Assembly: GCA_031267485.1 (NCBI GenBank)
Contig: JAIRYY010000342.1
Span: 1 to 23,623 of the forward strand
Origin: Tannerella sp.
Lineage (GTDB): Bacteria > Bacteroidota > Bacteroidia > Bacteroidales > Tannerellaceae
Direction of reading: 5' to 3'
DNA: 23,623 bases
Position 1 is the first letter of the stretch; each line of letters starts with the position of its first letter. Below are positions 913-20,255 of this stretch, piece by piece. The notes beneath the pieces are model-generated. The model was not told where the DNA came from. It did not search any database and saw nothing but the letters and a program-made list of their open reading frames with translations. The position numbers and the translations under genes are program-made.

Positions 913-1125
913 TTACTCTCCCGTGTTTTTACTCGAAACAAGCAAATCTTTTATATCCACATCCAATAACCCGGCTATTTTATATAAAACTTTAAGCGGA
1001 GGCTGTGTCACGTTGGAACACCAGCGCGAGACGGTTGCCACATCATAACCAATGGTTTCAGCCAGCCATTTACCTGTCCTCTTTTGTTCAACCAGAACAA
1101 CTTTCAGTCGATTTATCTGCTTCAT
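913..1125 (-). CDS. Small XRE-family helix-turn-helix transcriptional regulator
   Basis: A 70-residue protein consisting almost entirely of one HTH_3/Cro-C1 domain. The segment WLAETIGYDVATVSRWCSN reads as helix-turn-helix, followed by QPPLKVLYKIAGLLDVDIKDLL, the usual closing helices of the fold. The start at 1125 is preferred over an in-frame codon at 1152. The minus-strand -7 box at 1150-1157 places the transcript start near 1143, downstream of 1152, giving a leader of about 18 bases. Close relatives in Bacteroidota are stand-alone DNA-binding proteins, often next to restriction or methylase genes; none is visible here. It is divergent from the dar-like operon and shares an overlapping promoter with it, so autoregulation and control of that operon are plausible but inferred. 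Confidence 0.85.
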   Translation of the reverse strand: MKQINRLKVVLVEQKRTGKWLAETIGYDVATVSRWCSNVTQPPLKVLYKIAGLLDVDIKDLLVSSKNTGE

Positions 1126-1149
1126 TGCTTTTTCTTTTGATATTAGGCG

Positions 1150-1180
1150 CAAAGGTATTGATGATTTTTGGATTTACAAA
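1150..1180 (-). promoter_or_regulatory. Promoter of the XRE regulator
   Basis: Read on the minus strand, TACCTTTG (1157-1150) matches the Bacteroidota -7 consensus TAnnTTTG. A TTTG box (1180-1177) lies exactly 19 bases upstream. The transcript would start near 1143, just before the regulator's ATG at 1125. It overlaps the opposite promoter at 1167-1197. Confidence 0.7.
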
Positions 1181-1197
1181 AAAATGCTATACCTTTG
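1167..1197 (+). promoter_or_regulatory. Promoter of the dar-like operon
   Basis: TTTG (1167-1170), a 19-base spacer and TACCTTTG (1190-1197) form a complete Bacteroidota promoter reading into darA. The predicted transcript start is near 1204, about 60 bases before the darA start. Its -33 box lies inside the opposite promoter, so two polymerases could not bind at once. Confidence 0.7.
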
Positions 1198-1254
1198 CGC
1201 CGAGTTTTTTGAAAACAGTGGAAAACGAAGCAAAGTAAAGAAGATAAATTTAAT

Positions 1255-1269
1255 ATGGCGAGACAGTGA
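1255..1269 (+). CDS. Possible four-codon leader ORF overlapping the darA start
   Basis: An ATG at 1255 opens a tiny frame encoding MARQ. Its TGA (1267-1269) overlaps the darA GTG (1266-1268) as GTGA. It lies downstream of the predicted transcript start. This arrangement would allow termination and re-initiation at darA. With so few codons it could be chance; there is no other evidence that it is translated. Confidence 0.3.
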   Translation: MARQ

Positions 1270-2183
1270 AGAAATACAGGATAGCGCTGTTTTATTATAC
1301 CCAGACGGGGCAGGCGCTTGCCGTTGCAGACAGGATTTGCAAACCTTTTGTTCAGGCCGGATATGATATTGTGCGCAAGGAGATTGTTCCCGAAGAGCCG
1401 TATCCATTCCCGTGGTCTGCCGCGGATTTTTTCCAGGTTTTTCCCGAATCCCGCCTTGGCGTGCCGTGCGGACTGAAACCCATCGACCTGAGCGATGTGG
1501 AAGATGCCGATCTGGTTCTCATTGCCGGGCAAAGCTGGTATCTGTCGTGTTCCGTGCCGCTTCATGCGTTCTTTCAGTCGGACGATATCCGGAATTACCT
1601 GAAGGGACGCCCTGTCGTCGTGGCGCTGGGATGCCGCAACATGTGGGCGATGGCTCAGCGCAGGATGCGCGAATACATCCGTCAGGCGGGCGGACGCTAT
1701 GCCGGTTTTATCTCCCTGCAGGACAGGGCGGCTAATCTGGTTAGCGTGATTACGGTTGTACGGTGGCTGTTCTATAACAAAAAGGCTGCCACGCGCCTTT
1801 TGCCCGCCGCGGGGATTTCGCCCGGCGACATGGAACATGCGGAGGTGTTCGGACATATCATCCGGGATGCGCTGGAGCGCGGCGACTTTGCCGGACTGCA
1901 GGCCGCCCTGATGCGCGAGCGTGCCGTCACGTTCCTGCCGACCGTCTGGTTCATCGAGAAAAACGGCTACCGGCTCTGGGGGCAGTGGGCAAAGTTCATT
2001 ATCGCGAAAGGCTCCTACAGGGATGCCGGGCGAACGCCCTACCTGCGCCTGTTCTGCGTTTATCTGTTTTTCGTGTTATACGTCGTGTCGCCGGTCGGGA
2101 TGATTTTCTTCTTCCTTACCTGGCCGTTTCGCAGGGCCTCGCTACGGAAAGCGCGGCAGGAACTGTGCTATGAACTTGATTAA
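1266..2183 (+). CDS. darA: DarA-like dialkylresorcinol biosynthesis protein (flavodoxin-like)
   Basis: 305 residues, resembling proteins annotated as dialkylresorcinol condensing enzyme DarA in flexirubin clusters. The N-terminus has a flavodoxin-type phosphate loop (FYYTQTGQA, residues 9-17). Conserved-looking segments include PYPFPW (46-50 region), AGQSWYLS (87-94) and GCRNMWAMAQ (122-131), and a hydrophobic helix (about 260-287) may anchor it to the membrane. With DarB it would make the 2,5-dialkyl-cyclohexanedione/resorcinol ring; a redox or aromatising role fits the fold but is inferred, and published naming of Dar subunits varies. It starts with GTG; an in-frame TAA at 1251 rules out a longer start. 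It is the first gene of the operon, 20 bases before darB. Family call is from motif memory, not a search. Confidence 0.72.
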   Translation: MKKYRIALFYYTQTGQALAVADRICKPFVQAGYDIVRKEIVPEEPYPFPWSAADFFQVFPESRLGVPCGLKPIDLSDVEDADLVLIAGQSWYLSCSVPLHAFFQSDDIRNYLKGRPVVVALGCRNMWAMAQRRMREYIRQAGGRYAGFISLQDRAANLVSVITVVRWLFYNKKAATRLLPAAGISPGDMEHAEVFGHIIRDALERGDFAGLQAALMRERAVTFLPTVWFIEKNGYRLWGQWAKFIIAKGSYRDAGRTPYLRLFCVYLFFVLYVVSPVGMIFFFLTWPFRRASLRKARQELCYELD

Positions 2184-2203
2184 TCTATGTATGTAAAAAA
2201 AAT

Positions 2204-3349
2204 ATGATGAATGAGACCGTCTATATAAACCGCCTCTCCGCATTTTTTCCGAACCGGCCGGTCGGGAACGACGAAATGGAACAGTATATCGGCCTTGTTA
2301 ATGAAAAGTCGCTGCTGGCCAAACGGCTGGTACTGGCCAAAAACGGGATAAGGCAACGCTATTACGCGCTTGACAGGGAGGGGCGGGTGACGCACACCAA
2401 CGTTGTCATGGCGGCCAATGCCGTCAGGGGACTGCTGGACGCGGAGCTGACGCTGGACGGGATTGACCTGCTGTCGTGCGCGACGGCTTCGCCCGAGCAG
2501 ATCATGCCCTCGCACGGGGTCATGGTGCACGGCGAACTGCAGGGCAGCCGGCATACCGAGGTCGTTTCGTTCGCCGGCTCGTGCTGCACGGGGATGCAGG
2601 CTCTGAAATACGCCTGCTATGCCACGCTGGCCGGCGATGTCCGGAACGCGGTATGCGTGGCGTCCGAGCGCCTGTCGGCCTGGATGATGGCCCGCTATTT
2701 CGAAAGGGAATCGGAGTTGATCAACCGCCTGAGCGATCAGCCGATACTTGCGTTTGAAAAGGAATTTCTGCGCTGGATGCTGTCGGACGGAAGCGTCGCC
2801 CTGCTGCTGCAGGCCAAACCGGCGGAGAACGCGCTTTCGTACCGCATCGAATGGATTGAGCTGACTTCGTTCGCAAACGAGACGGAAACATGCATGTACG
2901 CCGGCGGCGATAAGGACGGGCACGGAAACCTCCGGGGATGGACGCAGTTCGCGGAACAGGAGTGGATCGACCGCTCGCTTTTCTCGCTGAAGCAGGACAC
3001 GAGGATGCTGGAAAGCCATATCGTGAAACTCGGCGGGCGCTTCCTGCGGGAGATAGCCGGCAGGCGTCATTTCGACCCCTCTTCCGTCGACTGGTTCATG
3101 CCCCACCTCTCGTCCATGTATTTCGGGAAGAAGATTGAGGATGAGCTGAAAGTATGCGGCTATGACATCCCCGCGGAGAAATGGTTCGTTAATCTGCCGG
3201 AAATAGGGAACGTCGCGTCGGTCTCGGCATTTGCCATGCTGGACGGCCTGCACCGTTCGGGACGGGCGAAAAAGGGCGACCGCATACTGCTGATGGTGCC
3301 CGAAAGCGCGCGCTTTTCATACGCATACGCTTTGCTGACGGTCTGTTAG
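2204..3349 (+). CDS. darB: DarB-like beta-ketoacyl-ACP synthase III (resorcinol-forming ketosynthase)
   Basis: 381 residues of thiolase fold, KAS III (FabH) type. The nucleophile Cys128 sits in SCCTGMQALK, matching the CAG motif of FabH. His301 in PHLSS and Asn336 in EIGNVAS complete a Cys-His-Asn triad. Known DarB enzymes join two beta-ketoacyl thioesters and cyclise them to a dialkylcyclohexanedione. The protein is more divergent than a housekeeping FabH: the PHQAN and GNTSA motifs are altered, and its neighbour is DarA-like, so a specialised role is likely. Two adjacent ATGs (2204, 2207) could start it. Substrates would have to come from ordinary fatty acid synthesis, since no acyl carrier protein gene lies in the operon. 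The enzyme class is firm; the resorcinol product is inferred. Confidence 0.8.
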   Translation: MMNETVYINRLSAFFPNRPVGNDEMEQYIGLVNEKSLLAKRLVLAKNGIRQRYYALDREGRVTHTNVVMAANAVRGLLDAELTLDGIDLLSCATASPEQIMPSHGVMVHGELQGSRHTEVVSFAGSCCTGMQALKYACYATLAGDVRNAVCVASERLSAWMMARYFERESELINRLSDQPILAFEKEFLRWMLSDGSVALLLQAKPAENALSYRIEWIELTSFANETETCMYAGGDKDGHGNLRGWTQFAEQEWIDRSLFSLKQDTRMLESHIVKLGGRFLREIAGRRHFDPSSVDWFMPHLSSMYFGKKIEDELKVCGYDIPAEKWFVNLPEIGNVASVSAFAMLDGLHRSGRAKKGDRILLMVPESARFSYAYALLTVC

Positions 3350-3352
3350 GAA

Positions 3353-3387
3353 ATTAAGAATCAGGAATTAAAAATTAAAAGTTGACA
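3353..3387 (+). repeat. Degenerate heptamer repeat before the small HTH-like gene
   Basis: Five consecutive 7-base units fill the gap between darB and the next gene. The two central units are identical ATTAAAA; the flanking units are ATTAAGA, ATCAGGA and GTTGACA. The last unit ends directly at the GTG start at 3388. A second array with the same 7-base phase and a related unit lies at 20221-20255. An AT-rich leader here may aid translation, which in Bacteroidota does not depend on a Shine-Dalgarno sequence (inference). Confidence 0.6.
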
Positions 3388-3795
3388 GTGAAGACAGAAG
3401 ATGTGCCGCAGGATTTGAAATACTTCAAGGACAGGATTGTCCGCGACCTGATATATGCCGTGGACGGGGACGGCCATTATACGCCCGTGCTCAGCGACGG
3501 CTGGAGCGTGAAGAACGATGCGCTGAATGCCGTCTGGGACGACATCCGCGAACAGTGCGGCGAAATCCGCCGGCAGGTGCTGGCAAAAGAGGCCAGTCCG
3601 CTTGCCTATCACATGAAAAAGGCGCTGCAGGACGTGGGGATGCTGGCCTCCTATTCCGGCGTTCCGAAAAGAAAAATCCGCAAACATCTGAAATATGATG
3701 AATTTGTGAAATCGGACGGGGAGACCCTGCGGAGATATGCGGATGCGTTGCGCATCACGGTTGACGAACTAAAACGCGTGGATGAATGGAGATAG
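3388..3795 (+). CDS. Small HTH-like protein of the dar operon, unknown role
   Basis: 135 residues from GTG at 3388; a TTG two codons upstream (3382) is the alternative. The N-terminal half carries YFKDRIVRDLIYAVDGDGHY and a WDDI segment, which I recall from small hypothetical proteins next to darB in flexirubin clusters. The C-terminal half looks like an XRE-type fold: MLASYSGVPKRKIRKHLK could be helix-turn-helix, followed by ETLRRYADALRITVDELKR. It could bind DNA and regulate the operon, or be an accessory protein that only shares the fold. Its end overlaps the next gene by 10 bases, so the two are probably translationally coupled. No enzymatic motif is seen. Confidence 0.7.
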   Translation: MKTEDVPQDLKYFKDRIVRDLIYAVDGDGHYTPVLSDGWSVKNDALNAVWDDIREQCGEIRRQVLAKEASPLAYHMKKALQDVGMLASYSGVPKRKIRKHLKYDEFVKSDGETLRRYADALRITVDELKRVDEWR

Positions 3796-4802
3796 ATTTT
3801 GAACACCGCACCGCCGCCCATTGCGAAAACGGGGTGACGGCCAATCTGCTTCGCTTTTACGGATACGACTATTCGGAGCCGCTTATTTTCGGCCTTTCCG
3901 CTTCGCTCTACTTTGTCCATCTGCCGTTTATCCGGCTGGCGGGATTCCCCGTCACCTCTTTCCGCCCCCTGCCGGGCGTCATCTTTGCGCGCGTCACGCG
4001 GCTGCTCGGATTCAAAATACACAAGACCGTTTTCCTGAACAGGAAGAACGCGGTGCGCCGGCTGGACGCGCTCATCGAACGGGGTATCCCGGCAGGCTGC
4101 GTCGTCGGGATGTATTTCCTGCCCTACATGCCGCTGGAATACCGGTTCCATTTTAATGCCCACAACATCTGCGTCATCGGGCGGGAGGAGGATGACTACC
4201 TTGTCAGCGACCCCATTGCAACGGAAAAAGTGACAATCTCGTCGCGCGATTTGCTGCGCGCGCGCTTTTCGAAGGGCACATATCCGCCGTTCGGGAAGCT
4301 TTACTGGATAAAATCGCTGCCCCGCAAGGCGCCCAATCTCGAAAAACTGGCGACGGCGGCAATCCTGAAAAACTGCCACCGTATGATTCACGAGCCGGGG
4401 CCTGTGCCTTTCGTCGGAGTGAACGGGTTTAACTACCTCGGCAACAAGATACCGCAATTCCCGTCAATCTATGGGGAGCGGAAAGCCGCCCTGCATCTGG
4501 TGCAGCTTATCCGCATGATGGAGGAAATCGGGACGGGAGGCGCCGGATTCCGTTTCCTCTATGCGGCATTCCTGCAGGAGGCGGCGGAGATAACGGGTAT
4601 CCGCGGGTTGAATGAGTTTTCGCTGCACCTCACGGACATCGGCGACCAGTGGCGTATTTTCGCCTCGGAAGCCGGACGCATTTACAAGAACCGCTCGCAG
4701 GAGGGCGTGGATTATCAGACGATAGGCAATCACCTGAAAGCTATCGGCGGACAGGAGAAACTGTTTTTTACCGGCCTCGAGAAACTAATCAAAAGCAAAT
4801 GA
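3786..4802 (+). CDS. BtrH N-terminal domain protein (acyltransferase-like)
   Basis: 338 residues. The N-terminal ~170 residues match the BtrH/DUF4872 pattern: HCENGVTANLLRFYG with Cys13, FHFNAHNICVIG with His126, and YLVSDP with Asp142. These suggest a papain-like Cys-His-Asp triad. BtrH of butirosin synthesis moves an acyl group from a carrier protein to an aminoglycoside. By analogy this protein could acylate, or release, the product of DarA/DarB. In flexirubin clusters related proteins sit beside dar genes, where resorcinol is esterified to an aryl polyene acid; no polyene genes are present here, so the acyl donor and acceptor are unknown. The C-terminal half (about 175-338) is helical and unrecognised. 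Its TGA overlaps the next gene's start as ATGA. Confidence 0.72.
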   Translation: MEIDFEHRTAAHCENGVTANLLRFYGYDYSEPLIFGLSASLYFVHLPFIRLAGFPVTSFRPLPGVIFARVTRLLGFKIHKTVFLNRKNAVRRLDALIERGIPAGCVVGMYFLPYMPLEYRFHFNAHNICVIGREEDDYLVSDPIATEKVTISSRDLLRARFSKGTYPPFGKLYWIKSLPRKAPNLEKLATAAILKNCHRMIHEPGPVPFVGVNGFNYLGNKIPQFPSIYGERKAALHLVQLIRMMEEIGTGGAGFRFLYAAFLQEAAEITGIRGLNEFSLHLTDIGDQWRIFASEAGRIYKNRSQEGVDYQTIGNHLKAIGGQEKLFFTGLEKLIKSK

Positions 4803-5536
4803 TGGAAAATCCCCTGATAACGATCCGGAATCTGCGCAAGACATACGCCGGAGCGTCGCATCCCTCGGTTGACGGACTGACGCTGCAGGTGGGACAGGGC
4901 GCGTTCTTCGGATTGCTGGGGCCTAACGGCGCGGGAAAAACGACGACGATTTCGATACTGTGCGGCCTGCGTTCTTACGATGGCGGGGAGGTTGCGGTCG
5001 GCGGGTTTGACGTGCGGCGCAAAATGAAATGTATAAAACCGCTGATAGGCGTTGTGCCGCAGGACATCGCCCTGTATCCCGAACTGACGGTCGGCGAGAA
5101 CCTCCGGTTTTTCGGCGGGATGTACCCCGTTCCGCCGCATGAACTGAACGGACGTATCGCCTCCTACCTGGAAGATTTCGGGTTGATGGCGCATCACGGG
5201 AAGAAAACGGGCCACCTTTCCGGAGGCATGAAACGCCAGGTCAATCTTATTGCTGCACTGCTGCACCGGCCTGCGCTGCTTTTTCTGGATGAGCCGACGG
5301 TCGGCGTCGACGTACATTCGCGCCGGGTTATCCTCGAAAACCTGCAGCATCTTCACCGCAACGGCATGACGATTGTCTACACTTCGCACGACATGAAGGA
5401 AGCGGAACAGCTCTGCACGCACGTCGTACTGATGAATCACGGGCGGACGGTCTGCGAGGGCGTCCCCCGGCAACTCGTTGGCGAAGCCTCCGTTTCTTCA
5501 CTCGAAGAACTGTTCATAAGTAAAACACTGCCGTAA
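4799..5536 (+). CDS. ABC transporter ATP-binding protein (ABC-2 type exporter)
   Basis: 245 residues, a complete nucleotide-binding domain. Walker A is GPNGAGKTT (41-49), the Q-loop Gln is 88 (VPQD), the signature is LSGGM (140-144), Walker B is LLFLDEP (160-166) and the H-loop His is 197. The sequence is of the CcmA/NatA-like exporter group that pairs with ABC-2 permeases. The ATG at 4799 overlaps the upstream stop by four bases; a second ATG follows directly at 4802. The permease gene follows after 14 bases. It would energise export of the operon's product; the substrate is inferred from context only. Confidence 0.93.
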
Positions 5537-5550
5537 ACCCGGTTGCCACG

Positions 5551-6873
5551 ATGAGGAATTTTATAAATTTGCTGCGCAGGGATTTTCTGCTGCTTATCCG
5601 CGACGTCTGGGGCATTGTACTGCTCTTCCTGATGCCGTGGGCGCTGGCGCTGATGATGACGTATCTCCAGGACAGTACGTTCCGTTCGATTAACGAGAAT
5701 CGCGTCGCGCTCTACCTGCTCGACAGCGACCGCGATTCGCTGGGCAGCATGGTCGGCCGGCATCTGTCGGCAAGCAGCATTTTCGAGGTGTCAACCGAAG
5801 CGGGCGGACACATTCTTTCGGAGAATGAACTTGAAGAAGCCGTCTCGCGCGGCGACTACCTGATCGGCGTCGTCATACCGGAACATGCGACGGCGCACCT
5901 GCGGGCGGAAGTCGTCCGCGACGTCGAAAAAGCTTTCAACGGCGGCGAAGACGGCGGCGGCAGTGAAAGCGAAGGAAGCGGCGAAGATGGTTTCGGCAGT
6001 GGAAAACCGGAAAGTAACCGTTCCCGTCCCGAGATAAAAATCTTTGTCGACCCGAAAGCCAAACCGTCGTTTCGCACATCGCTGATACGGGCTGTGCGCG
6101 AAAATGCGCTGACGATACAGAACCGGCTTCTTCTCGGCGAAATAACGCGGCAGGTGAACCGCATCGTCCCGATACCCGTCAACCTCGACATCGACGCCGG
6201 CGAACTGATTGCGATAAACGAATCGTATGCGCGGCCGGACAAGACGAAAATCATTCCCAACTCCACCCAGCACAACGTGCCCGCCTGGAGTATGTTTGCG
6301 ATATTCTTCATCGTGATCTCGCTGGCCGGCAATATGATTCGCGAGCGGGAGATCGGCTGTTTCAACCGCCTGATGACGATGCCCTGTTCCTTTCATTTAT
6401 ACATCCTGAGCAAGGTCGGCGTCTATTTGTGCGTATGCCTGCTTCAGCTTACACTGATGATTCTGACGGGCATGTACGTCATACCGCTGTTCGGTCTGCC
6501 CGCGCTGGAACTCGGACACAGCCTGTCCGCCCTGCTCGCCATGTCGGTCTCGTCCTCGCTGGCCGCCATCGGCTACGGGCTGGCCATCGGAAGCGTTGCC
6601 CGCACAAATCAGCAGGCGAGCGTTTTCGGCGCGGTGTCGGTCGTCATCCTGGCCGCCGTCGGAGGCGTGTGGATACCCACCTTTGTCATGCCGCGCCTGA
6701 TGCAGGCCATGAGTAACATATCGCCCTTAAACTGGGGATTGAACGGGTTCAATGACATTTTCGTCCGCGATGCGGGTTTCCGCGAAATATGGCCTTACCT
6801 GTCCGCGTCGCTGCTCTTCTTCGCCGTCGCGCTGATCATCTCCCGTCATGGCAACCGAAAGAGACGGAGATGA
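5551..6873 (+). CDS. ABC-2 type transporter permease
   Basis: 440 residues. One membrane helix lies near residues 17-38 and five more at about 243-263, 284-311, 327-348, 357-378 and 415-431, the layout of ABC-2 permeases with a large extracytoplasmic domain between helices 1 and 2. The GNMIREREIGCFNRLMTMP segment (260-278) is the coupling-helix region typical of the family. Residues 129-157 are an odd low-complexity insert of Gly, Ser, Glu and Asp. It is the last gene of the operon, which has no obvious hairpin terminator before the next promoter. Partner of the preceding ATPase. Confidence 0.9.
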   Translation: MRNFINLLRRDFLLLIRDVWGIVLLFLMPWALALMMTYLQDSTFRSINENRVALYLLDSDRDSLGSMVGRHLSASSIFEVSTEAGGHILSENELEEAVSRGDYLIGVVIPEHATAHLRAEVVRDVEKAFNGGEDGGGSESEGSGEDGFGSGKPESNRSRPEIKIFVDPKAKPSFRTSLIRAVRENALTIQNRLLLGEITRQVNRIVPIPVNLDIDAGELIAINESYARPDKTKIIPNSTQHNVPAWSMFAIFFIVISLAGNMIREREIGCFNRLMTMPCSFHLYILSKVGVYLCVCLLQLTLMILTGMYVIPLFGLPALELGHSLSALLAMSVSSSLAAIGYGLAIGSVARTNQQASVFGAVSVVILAAVGGVWIPTFVMPRLMQAMSNISPLNWGLNGFNDIFVRDAGFREIWPYLSASLLFFAVALIISRHGNRKRRR

Positions 6874-6892: not shown

Positions 6893-6923
6893 TTTGTCCG
6901 GTCGGAAAGAATTGTTATATTTG
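6893..6923 (+). promoter_or_regulatory. Promoter of the single-domain DUF1080 gene
   Basis: TTTG (6893-6896), a 19-base spacer and TATATTTG (6916-6923) match the Bacteroidota consensus exactly. The transcript would start near 6930, leaving an AT-rich leader of about 80 bases before the ATG at 7010. Confidence 0.75.
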
Positions 6924-19394: not shown

Positions 19395-20225
19395 ATGAAC
19401 GGAAAATGTCCTTTGGGTATATTTGATTCGGGCTATGGCGGACTGACCATATTCGATGATATACGCCGTCTGTTGCCGGAATATGACTATCTGTATCTTG
19501 GCGACAATGCCCGCGCGCCTTATGGATCCCGTTCTTTCGAGATTGTTTACCGGTTTACCCGCCAGGCCGTGATGCGACTCTTCGGCGAGGGATGCCCGTT
19601 AGTCATACTTGCCTGCAACACGGCATCGGCAAAGGCGCTGCGCACGATACAGCAGCTTGACCTGCCCGTGTCGGACGACGCTTCCCGCAGAGTGCTGGGT
19701 ATCATACGGCCTACGGTGGAAATGCTCGGCCCGCTGAGCCGGACGCGGCATATCGGCATTCTGGGAACTGCCGGCACTATTTCTTCCGGTTCGTATTCCC
19801 TGGAGATTGCCAAACTTTATCCCGATATGACGGTGACCGGCGAAGCCTGCCCGATGTGGGTGCCGCTTGTGGAAAACCGGGAGCACGACAGCGCCGGCGC
19901 CGATTATTTCGTCCGCAAAAACATGGAACATCTGTTTGCGGCCGATTCGCTGATTGACACCTTGACGCTTGGCTGCACGCATTATCCGCTGCTCGAAGCC
20001 AAAATACGCAAGTATCTGCCCGGAGGAGTTCATCTGTTTTCTCAGGGGCCTTGTGTGGCGAAAAGCCTGAAGGATTATCTCATGCGCCATCCCGAAATGG
20101 CACGCCGCTTGTCGAGGAACGGGGAATGTCGGTTTATGACCACCGAATCGGAAGAGAAATTTTCGGAAGCGGCTTCCTTTTTCCTGAAACGTTCCGTCAA
20201 TGTGGAACGGACGGTAATCAATTGA
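19395..20225 (+). CDS. murI: Glutamate racemase
   Basis: 276 residues. The two catalytic cysteines are Cys74 in ACNTASAKA and Cys194 in LGCTHYPLL. FDSGYGGLT (10-18) and GDNARAPYG (36-44) form the rest of the active site. It makes D-glutamate for peptidoglycan stems. The start at 19395 matches the family N-terminus; an upstream in-frame codon at 19329 lies before the terminator hairpin and is rejected. Eight T residues stand directly before the ATG. No clear promoter is seen between the terminator and the gene, so its transcription is unexplained. A heptamer array begins in its last codons. Confidence 0.95.
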   Translation: MNGKCPLGIFDSGYGGLTIFDDIRRLLPEYDYLYLGDNARAPYGSRSFEIVYRFTRQAVMRLFGEGCPLVILACNTASAKALRTIQQLDLPVSDDASRRVLGIIRPTVEMLGPLSRTRHIGILGTAGTISSGSYSLEIAKLYPDMTVTGEACPMWVPLVENREHDSAGADYFVRKNMEHLFAADSLIDTLTLGCTHYPLLEAKIRKYLPGGVHLFSQGPCVAKSLKDYLMRHPEMARRLSRNGECRFMTTESEEKFSEAASFFLKRSVNVERTVIN

Positions 20226-20255
20226 TAATTGATAATTGACAATGGATAATTGATA
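20221..20255 (+). repeat. Five-copy heptamer tandem repeat (unit ATTGATA)
   Basis: Five head-to-tail 7-base units start in the last codons of murI. Three are exactly ATTGATA; the third is ATTGACA and the fourth ATGGATA. The array lies just ahead of the M15 peptidase start (20283). It has the same period and AT-rich character as the array at 3353-3387. Copy number could vary by slippage. Confidence 0.8.

Follow-up and report, generated by a model that had tools for sequence, protein, structure and literature searches.

Does the dar operon of a Tannerella sp. genome, which lies on a contig without polyene genes, make and export a product of its own, or does it serve a pathway whose other parts lie elsewhere? 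The operon, darA-darB-darG-darH followed by two ATP-binding cassette (ABC) transporter genes, was analysed in a stretch of 23,623 nt (positions 1–23,623 of contig JAIRYY010000342.1, assembly GCA_031267485.1), hereafter the window; its contig is C103 in our in-house labels, in which G numbers denote genomes and L numbers fetched loci. The original prediction, made from this stretch alone, saw a stand-alone route to an exported resorcinol lipid, possibly a signal. Our analysis shifts this signal-lipid prediction to a pigment pathway: the operon is likely the module for dialkylresorcinol synthesis, ester formation and export of a flexirubin-type pathway, one that yields aryl-polyene-dialkylresorcinol esters and is distributed over at least three places in the genome. 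A stand-alone signal-lipid system is improbable.

The six genes and their products

Six plus-strand genes fill positions 1266–6873:

1266..2183, +, darA, dialkylresorcinol aromatase-like, with a flavodoxin-like start and a C-terminal hydrophobic segment (by place and identity)
2204..3349, +, darB, StlD/DarB-family ketosynthase (NF005293)
3388..3795, +, darG, predicted C-terminal helix-turn-helix (HTH)-like domain (open reading frame (ORF) from 3382; NF053536)
3786..4802, +, darH, BtrH-related acyltransferase with C13, H126 and D142 (NF053550)
4799..5536, +, ABC transporter ATPase (ABC_tran)
5551..6873, +, ABC-2 type permease (ABC2_membrane_3)

Successive genes are separated by 20 (A–B), 32 (B–G), −10 (G–H), −4 (H–ATPase) and 14 (ATPase–permease) bases, bearing out the compact six-gene operon in a Bacteroidales host that had been predicted. 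The DarG relatives make a darG start at GTG 3388 likelier than one at 3382, in which case the B–G gap would be 38 bases.

Profile searches placed three of the proteins over the cut-offs of curated models: DarB in StlD/DarB (NF005293, 504 bits, cut-off 450), DarG in DarG_fam (NF053536, 119 bits, cut-off 70) and DarH in NF053550 (387 bits, cut-off 300). With the ABC_tran and ABC2_membrane_3 matches, the claims of dialkylresorcinol-type genes with an exporter and of a BtrH-like acyltransferase gene held. DarA had no NCBIfam match and only a sub-threshold flavodoxin match (21.5 of 25 bits); we call this gene darA because it precedes darB and its product shares 34–39 % identity with that of the gene preceding darB in the named Bacteroidota records L178–L182. 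The C-terminal hydrophobic segment recurs in all full-length DarA relatives (34/34). The nearest named DarA proteins (81–82 % identity) belong to metagenome-assembled genomes (MAGs) of Tannerella sp., whose isolate codes suggest an origin in termite guts.

DarB residues C127, H301 and N336, which we take to be the ketosynthase triad, align with StlD and are conserved in 95 % or more of 46 relatives. An identity as housekeeping FabH was rejected, the score of 67 bits (fabH cut-off 292) standing far below that for StlD/DarB. In DarH, C13, H126 and D142 are invariant across 48 sequences, and the predicted fold and the placing of the Cys, His and Asp match those of the carrier-protein-dependent acyltransferases CtaG (closthioamide) and CcbD, at 12–15 % identity. 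For CtaG, the proposed reaction is the transfer of hydroxybenzoate to a peptide-like chain, as far as PMC6772006 describes it, whereas DarH would form an ester. Neither DarA nor DarH had a solved relative by sequence at E values up to 1, and DarG gave short HTH-domain matches in Foldseek, none at E 0.001 or below.

Polyene and Flx genes in the same genome

The window genome is a 2.73-Mb MAG of 351 contigs, 77 % complete with 1.5 % contamination. It was searched with aligned profiles for the chain-length factor (CLF; A1, 21 rows), the ammonia-lyase (A2, 10 rows) and the ketosynthase (KS) beside the CLF (A3, 13 rows), all built from loci of other genomes that had been identified by their DarH or DarB, so that A1, with its 21 such loci, may favour CLFs of that kind. 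None of the three profiles matched the window contig, in agreement with the prediction that no polyene genes lie alongside. Matches were found on two other contigs, namely C192 (CLF 340 bits, KS 510 bits) and C347 (ammonia-lyase 820 bits, whereas the second-best matches in five other genomes, at HutH level, scored 285–325). C192, followed along the direction of transcription, carries 12 genes in the order ketoreductase (KR), KS, acyl carrier protein (ACP), LpxL-like acyltransferase, methyltransferase, dehydratase-like protein, thioesterase, KS, unknown (c10), ACP, KS and CLF. By NCBIfam, the methyltransferase is FlxJ (603 bits, cut-off 560), the C347 lyase is the flexirubin tyrosine ammonia-lyase FlxA (849 bits, cut-off 700) and the ligase FlxY lies near it (615 bits, cut-off 520). 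The only DarH of the genome is the window's own.

The genome thus holds what is expected of a flexirubin-type pathway (darA/darB, FlxA/FlxY and a polyene type II synthase set), apart from polyene genes beside the dar genes, these being on other contigs. Such linkage is not required, because in Chitinophaga pinensis the pathway is also split, as far as PMC3992019 describes it. Here the original prediction gave way: if the operon were stand-alone, its product would be a free or fatty-acylated dialkylresorcinol, exported to act as a signal or antioxidant and having nothing to do with the polyene cluster, as the bare window contig might suggest; however, the polyene set with FlxJ, as well as FlxA and FlxY, is encoded in the same genome. 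The refuting outcome named in advance had two parts, polyene genes in the same genome and their co-regulation with the operon; the search bears out the first part.

From these genes we infer how the three loci might act together. DarB would condense and cyclise two fatty-acid-type thioesters, and DarA would aromatise the ring to give a 2,5-dialkylresorcinol. FlxA and FlxY (C347) would make and activate coumarate, while the type II synthase on C192 (KR, ketosynthases, CLF, ACPs, dehydratase-like protein and FlxJ) would build an ACP-bound aryl-polyene acid. DarH, through C13-H126-D142, would take this acid off the ACP and pass it to a phenolic hydroxyl, so that DarH is the probable catalyst of ester formation between polyene and resorcinol, and the ABC pair would carry this ester out, towards the outer membrane. 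PMC3992019, the one paper covering pathway initiation, tentatively assigns the joining step to the ligase-like FlxW. Gut and oral Tannerella may accordingly make flexirubin-type compounds, and in such habitats these are unlikely to serve as protection from light.

Near FlxA/FlxY, a B12-binding/radical S-adenosylmethionine (SAM) protein is encoded (L134, 7585–8865); it fell below Pfam cut-offs, and no NCBIfam model was over cut-off. As radical-SAM genes also lie by the dar genes of congeners, directly before darA in L113, L116, L117, L119, L123 and L129 and after the operon in L121 and L125, they tie the loci together. A tailoring step on the pigment would be a guess at their role.

Gene order and co-occurrence in relatives

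In several Bacteroidales the six genes lie, in the window order, inside one flexirubin-type cluster, and the linked flexirubin clusters of Flavobacterium humi (L180) and Aquimarina intermedia (L181) show the same DarA-DarB-DarG-DarH-ABC-ABC order. Unlike the window, L180 and L181 have FlxA, KR, KS, ACP and LpxL-like genes on one side and more KS, ACP and CLF genes on the opposite side, and their darB and darG are separated by a dehydratase-like gene. This neighbourhood comparison also speaks against a stand-alone route. According to what PMC3992019 states of them, Flavobacterium johnsoniae has a linked flexirubin cluster and its darB mutant lacks flexirubin, and DarA and DarB of C. pinensis, expressed elsewhere, yield the flexirubin resorcinol.

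Split flexirubin-type loci are already known. C. pinensis, in the description of PMC3992019, resembles the window genome in that its dar genes (Cpin_6850/6851) lie apart from an FlxA/FlxY polyene cluster (Cpin_1853–1877); the window genome differs in having FlxA/FlxY on a different contig from the polyene synthase. Two flexirubin clusters are also mentioned in PMC6767994. The arcuflavin system of Azoarcus sp. BH72, as PMC3949708 presents it, likewise has darA, darB, a BtrH-like gene and ABC ATPase/permease genes, with two polyene loci that are unlinked and separate from the dar genes, and its product is a proposed polyene-resorcinol ester. It differs in that the starter is hydroxybenzoate, not coumarate, and in that the dar locus, ~20 locus tags from one polyene locus, also holds an ACP and a KS gene. 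Less expected are the occurrence of the window operon in Tannerella, the scattering of its pathway over three places and the fact that darGH-ABC can part from darAB; among the literature found for Tannerella with flexirubin or aryl polyene, no title or abstract opening dealt with this operon. Because these pathways scatter, an operon of this kind cannot be judged from its own contig.

Maps of the fetched loci were remade by tblastn with the window-genome proteins, as ORF-picked maps mislabel some GC-rich loci (e.g. L129, L107). The six genes occur in order in 26/68 loci. Among these, polyene genes lie on both sides in four (L037, L039, L043, L046) and adjoin in opposite orientation in two (L069, L107), while ACP-KS-CLF follows downstream in others (e.g. 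L050, L052, L054). One contig of G312, a genome of the same family, carries the dar operon together with polyene genes, FlxA and FlxY. Eight of the 42 loci with DarB and DarH hold at least three polyene genes and 26 hold none, although many of these stretches stop at contig ends. Within the genus, 12 of 23 loci show the full order, and polyene KS, CLF or FlxA was found in 0/12 of their fetched stretches, a pattern favouring a stand-alone role; CLF is encoded elsewhere in the genomes of these species, except in G381 (67 % complete).

Across 295 Bacteroidales genomes, which are related, so that co-occurrences are not independent events, DarH was over cut-off in 45, DarB in 38 and CLF (E ≤1e-40) in 74. 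CLF accompanies DarH in 43/45 genomes, compared with 31 of the 250 without DarH; it is present in 35/38 DarB genomes, and DarB in 33/45 DarH genomes. The family (123 genomes) has CLF in 29/30 DarH genomes, and its 25 DarB genomes include 23 with full-length CLF and 23 with DarH; setting apart 13 weak or partial CLF matches lowered the number with CLF but no DarH from 30 to 17 and left 29/30 unchanged. In the genus (41 genomes), CLF is found in 39, DarH in 27 and DarB in 21, the two genomes without CLF being 67 % and 59 % complete.

A number of observations weigh against the flexirubin-type reading. The window proteins did not reach two narrower models, resorcinol_DarB (514 of 550 bits) and flexirubin_DarG (NF053545, 128 of 170 bits). 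DarH occurs without DarB over cut-off in 12/45 genomes of the order (in G170, which is among these, darB is fragmented) and 7/30 of the family, including G369 (99 % complete). DarB and CLF occur without DarH over cut-off in G165 (99 % complete), G263 (79 %) and the family genome G374 (76 %), and with DarH pieces only in G083 and G187. DarB and DarH occur without CLF in G141 (83 %), G161 (95 %) and the family genome G381 (67 %). Lastly, with 351 contigs and a completeness of 77 %, the MAG relies on binning for the assignment of its contigs.

That the polyene contigs were mis-binned and are foreign to the window organism is nonetheless hardly credible, even with the fragmentation and 1.5 % contamination of the MAG, given that CLF is present in 39/41 genus genomes, with both misses incomplete, and that dar, CLF and FlxA are all present in the closed genomes G371 and G370. 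In G371 (same genus), darA-B-G-H-ABC-ABC lies near 2.40 Mb, with a radical-SAM gene just before it and FlxY convergent. A KS-CLF pair sits at about 2.005 Mb and FlxA at about 0.834 Mb, which argues against mis-binning as a general cause of the split. No other gene of the window polyene set was found in the 19.9 kb fetched around this KS-CLF pair, suggesting that the set may be scattered further in that species.

The exceptions also bear on the stand-alone route. G141 and G161 are the best candidates for it, as their top KS matches (279 and 264 bits) are below polyene-type KS hits (387–654 bits). DarB without DarH and CLF, in G189 (99 % complete) and G413 (98 %, stop codon in darB), might be read the same way, but these complete-looking genomes lack DarH along with CLF. 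Given also the 43/45 association of DarH with CLF, we consider a stand-alone role of the window operon unlikely.

Alternatively, two products could be made, the resorcinol staying free and DarH and the ABC pair serving the aryl polyene with another acceptor. The family genomes with DarH and without DarB are consistent with this, as are G397 and G398, where darAB lies apart from darGH-ABC, and G369, whose locus (L149) has darG-darH-ABC-ABC without darAB in the setting where L117 has them. The fixed six-gene order speaks against two products, as do the published flexirubin and arcuflavin products, which join both parts (in the accounts of PMC3992019 and PMC3949708), and we regard this alternative as very unlikely. 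A further, tentative reading, doubtful as yet, is that darG-darH and the ABC pair form a separable aryl-polyene transfer and export device, since darGH-ABC stays with polyene genes where darAB is absent (the 12/45 and 7/30 genomes above). DarH might then pass the polyene from its ACP to different acceptors, of which dialkylresorcinol would be one, and in gut and oral anaerobes the product might act against oxidative stress or in envelope function rather than against light.

Individual loci illustrate this separation. In L149, as in L117 (G370), a radical-SAM gene precedes the operon genes, and G369 also carries CLF. L047, L048, L049, L065, L070 and L073 are polyene clusters with FlxA and darG-darH-ABC-ABC and no darAB alongside; DarB is encoded elsewhere in G097, G198 and G283 (L047–L049), with none over cut-off in G100, G200 and G285. 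A B12/radical-SAM gene (c15) belongs to clusters of the L047/L065 type, with a domain scan made in L065. DarA-like genes without a darB match alongside in the fetched stretch were seen in L171–L176 and L183 (43–54 % identity; 82 % in L172, cut by the contig end). Plasmid relatives of DarB (7 records) were set aside, all being below 60 % identity; in L185 (Bacteroides ovatus plasmid) and L186 (Prevotella nigrescens plasmid), a DarB-like ketosynthase gene stands directly downstream of a regulator gene, and their incomplete gene tables name no further dar gene.

Control region and flanks

Upstream of darA, two further features were identified:

1167..1197, +, promoter-like site TTTG-N19-TAnnTTTG of the operon (motif match)
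913..1152, −, divergent XRE-type regulator (family match)

The motif is presumably the promoter type of Bacteroidota. It occurs twice in 1101–1266, once per strand, where simple shuffles expect 0.0075, and six times in the whole window, compared with 0.3 in simple shuffles. The site of the XRE-type regulator (1180–1150, −) overlaps that of the operon; a role of this regulator in operon control is a guess, and no relative of it was seen in the other fetched loci. As another such site (6893–6923) precedes the gene after the permease, the operon plausibly ends at 6873. The flanks are as originally described, with an incomplete DDE transposase where the contig ends beyond the regulator on the left and 3-keto-disaccharide hydrolase (DUF1080) genes on the right.

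The darB–darG spacer (3350–3381) contains, judged by eye, about four imperfect AT-rich heptamers that Tandem Repeats Finder (TRF) did not list at its default score. It was rejected as a conserved element, as the 17 relatives printed have no common array and spacers of −29 to 90 bases, the negative lengths possibly stemming from over-long ORF calls. The sole tandem array that TRF lists in the window at default score is AATTGAT, in 5.1 copies at 20220–20255.
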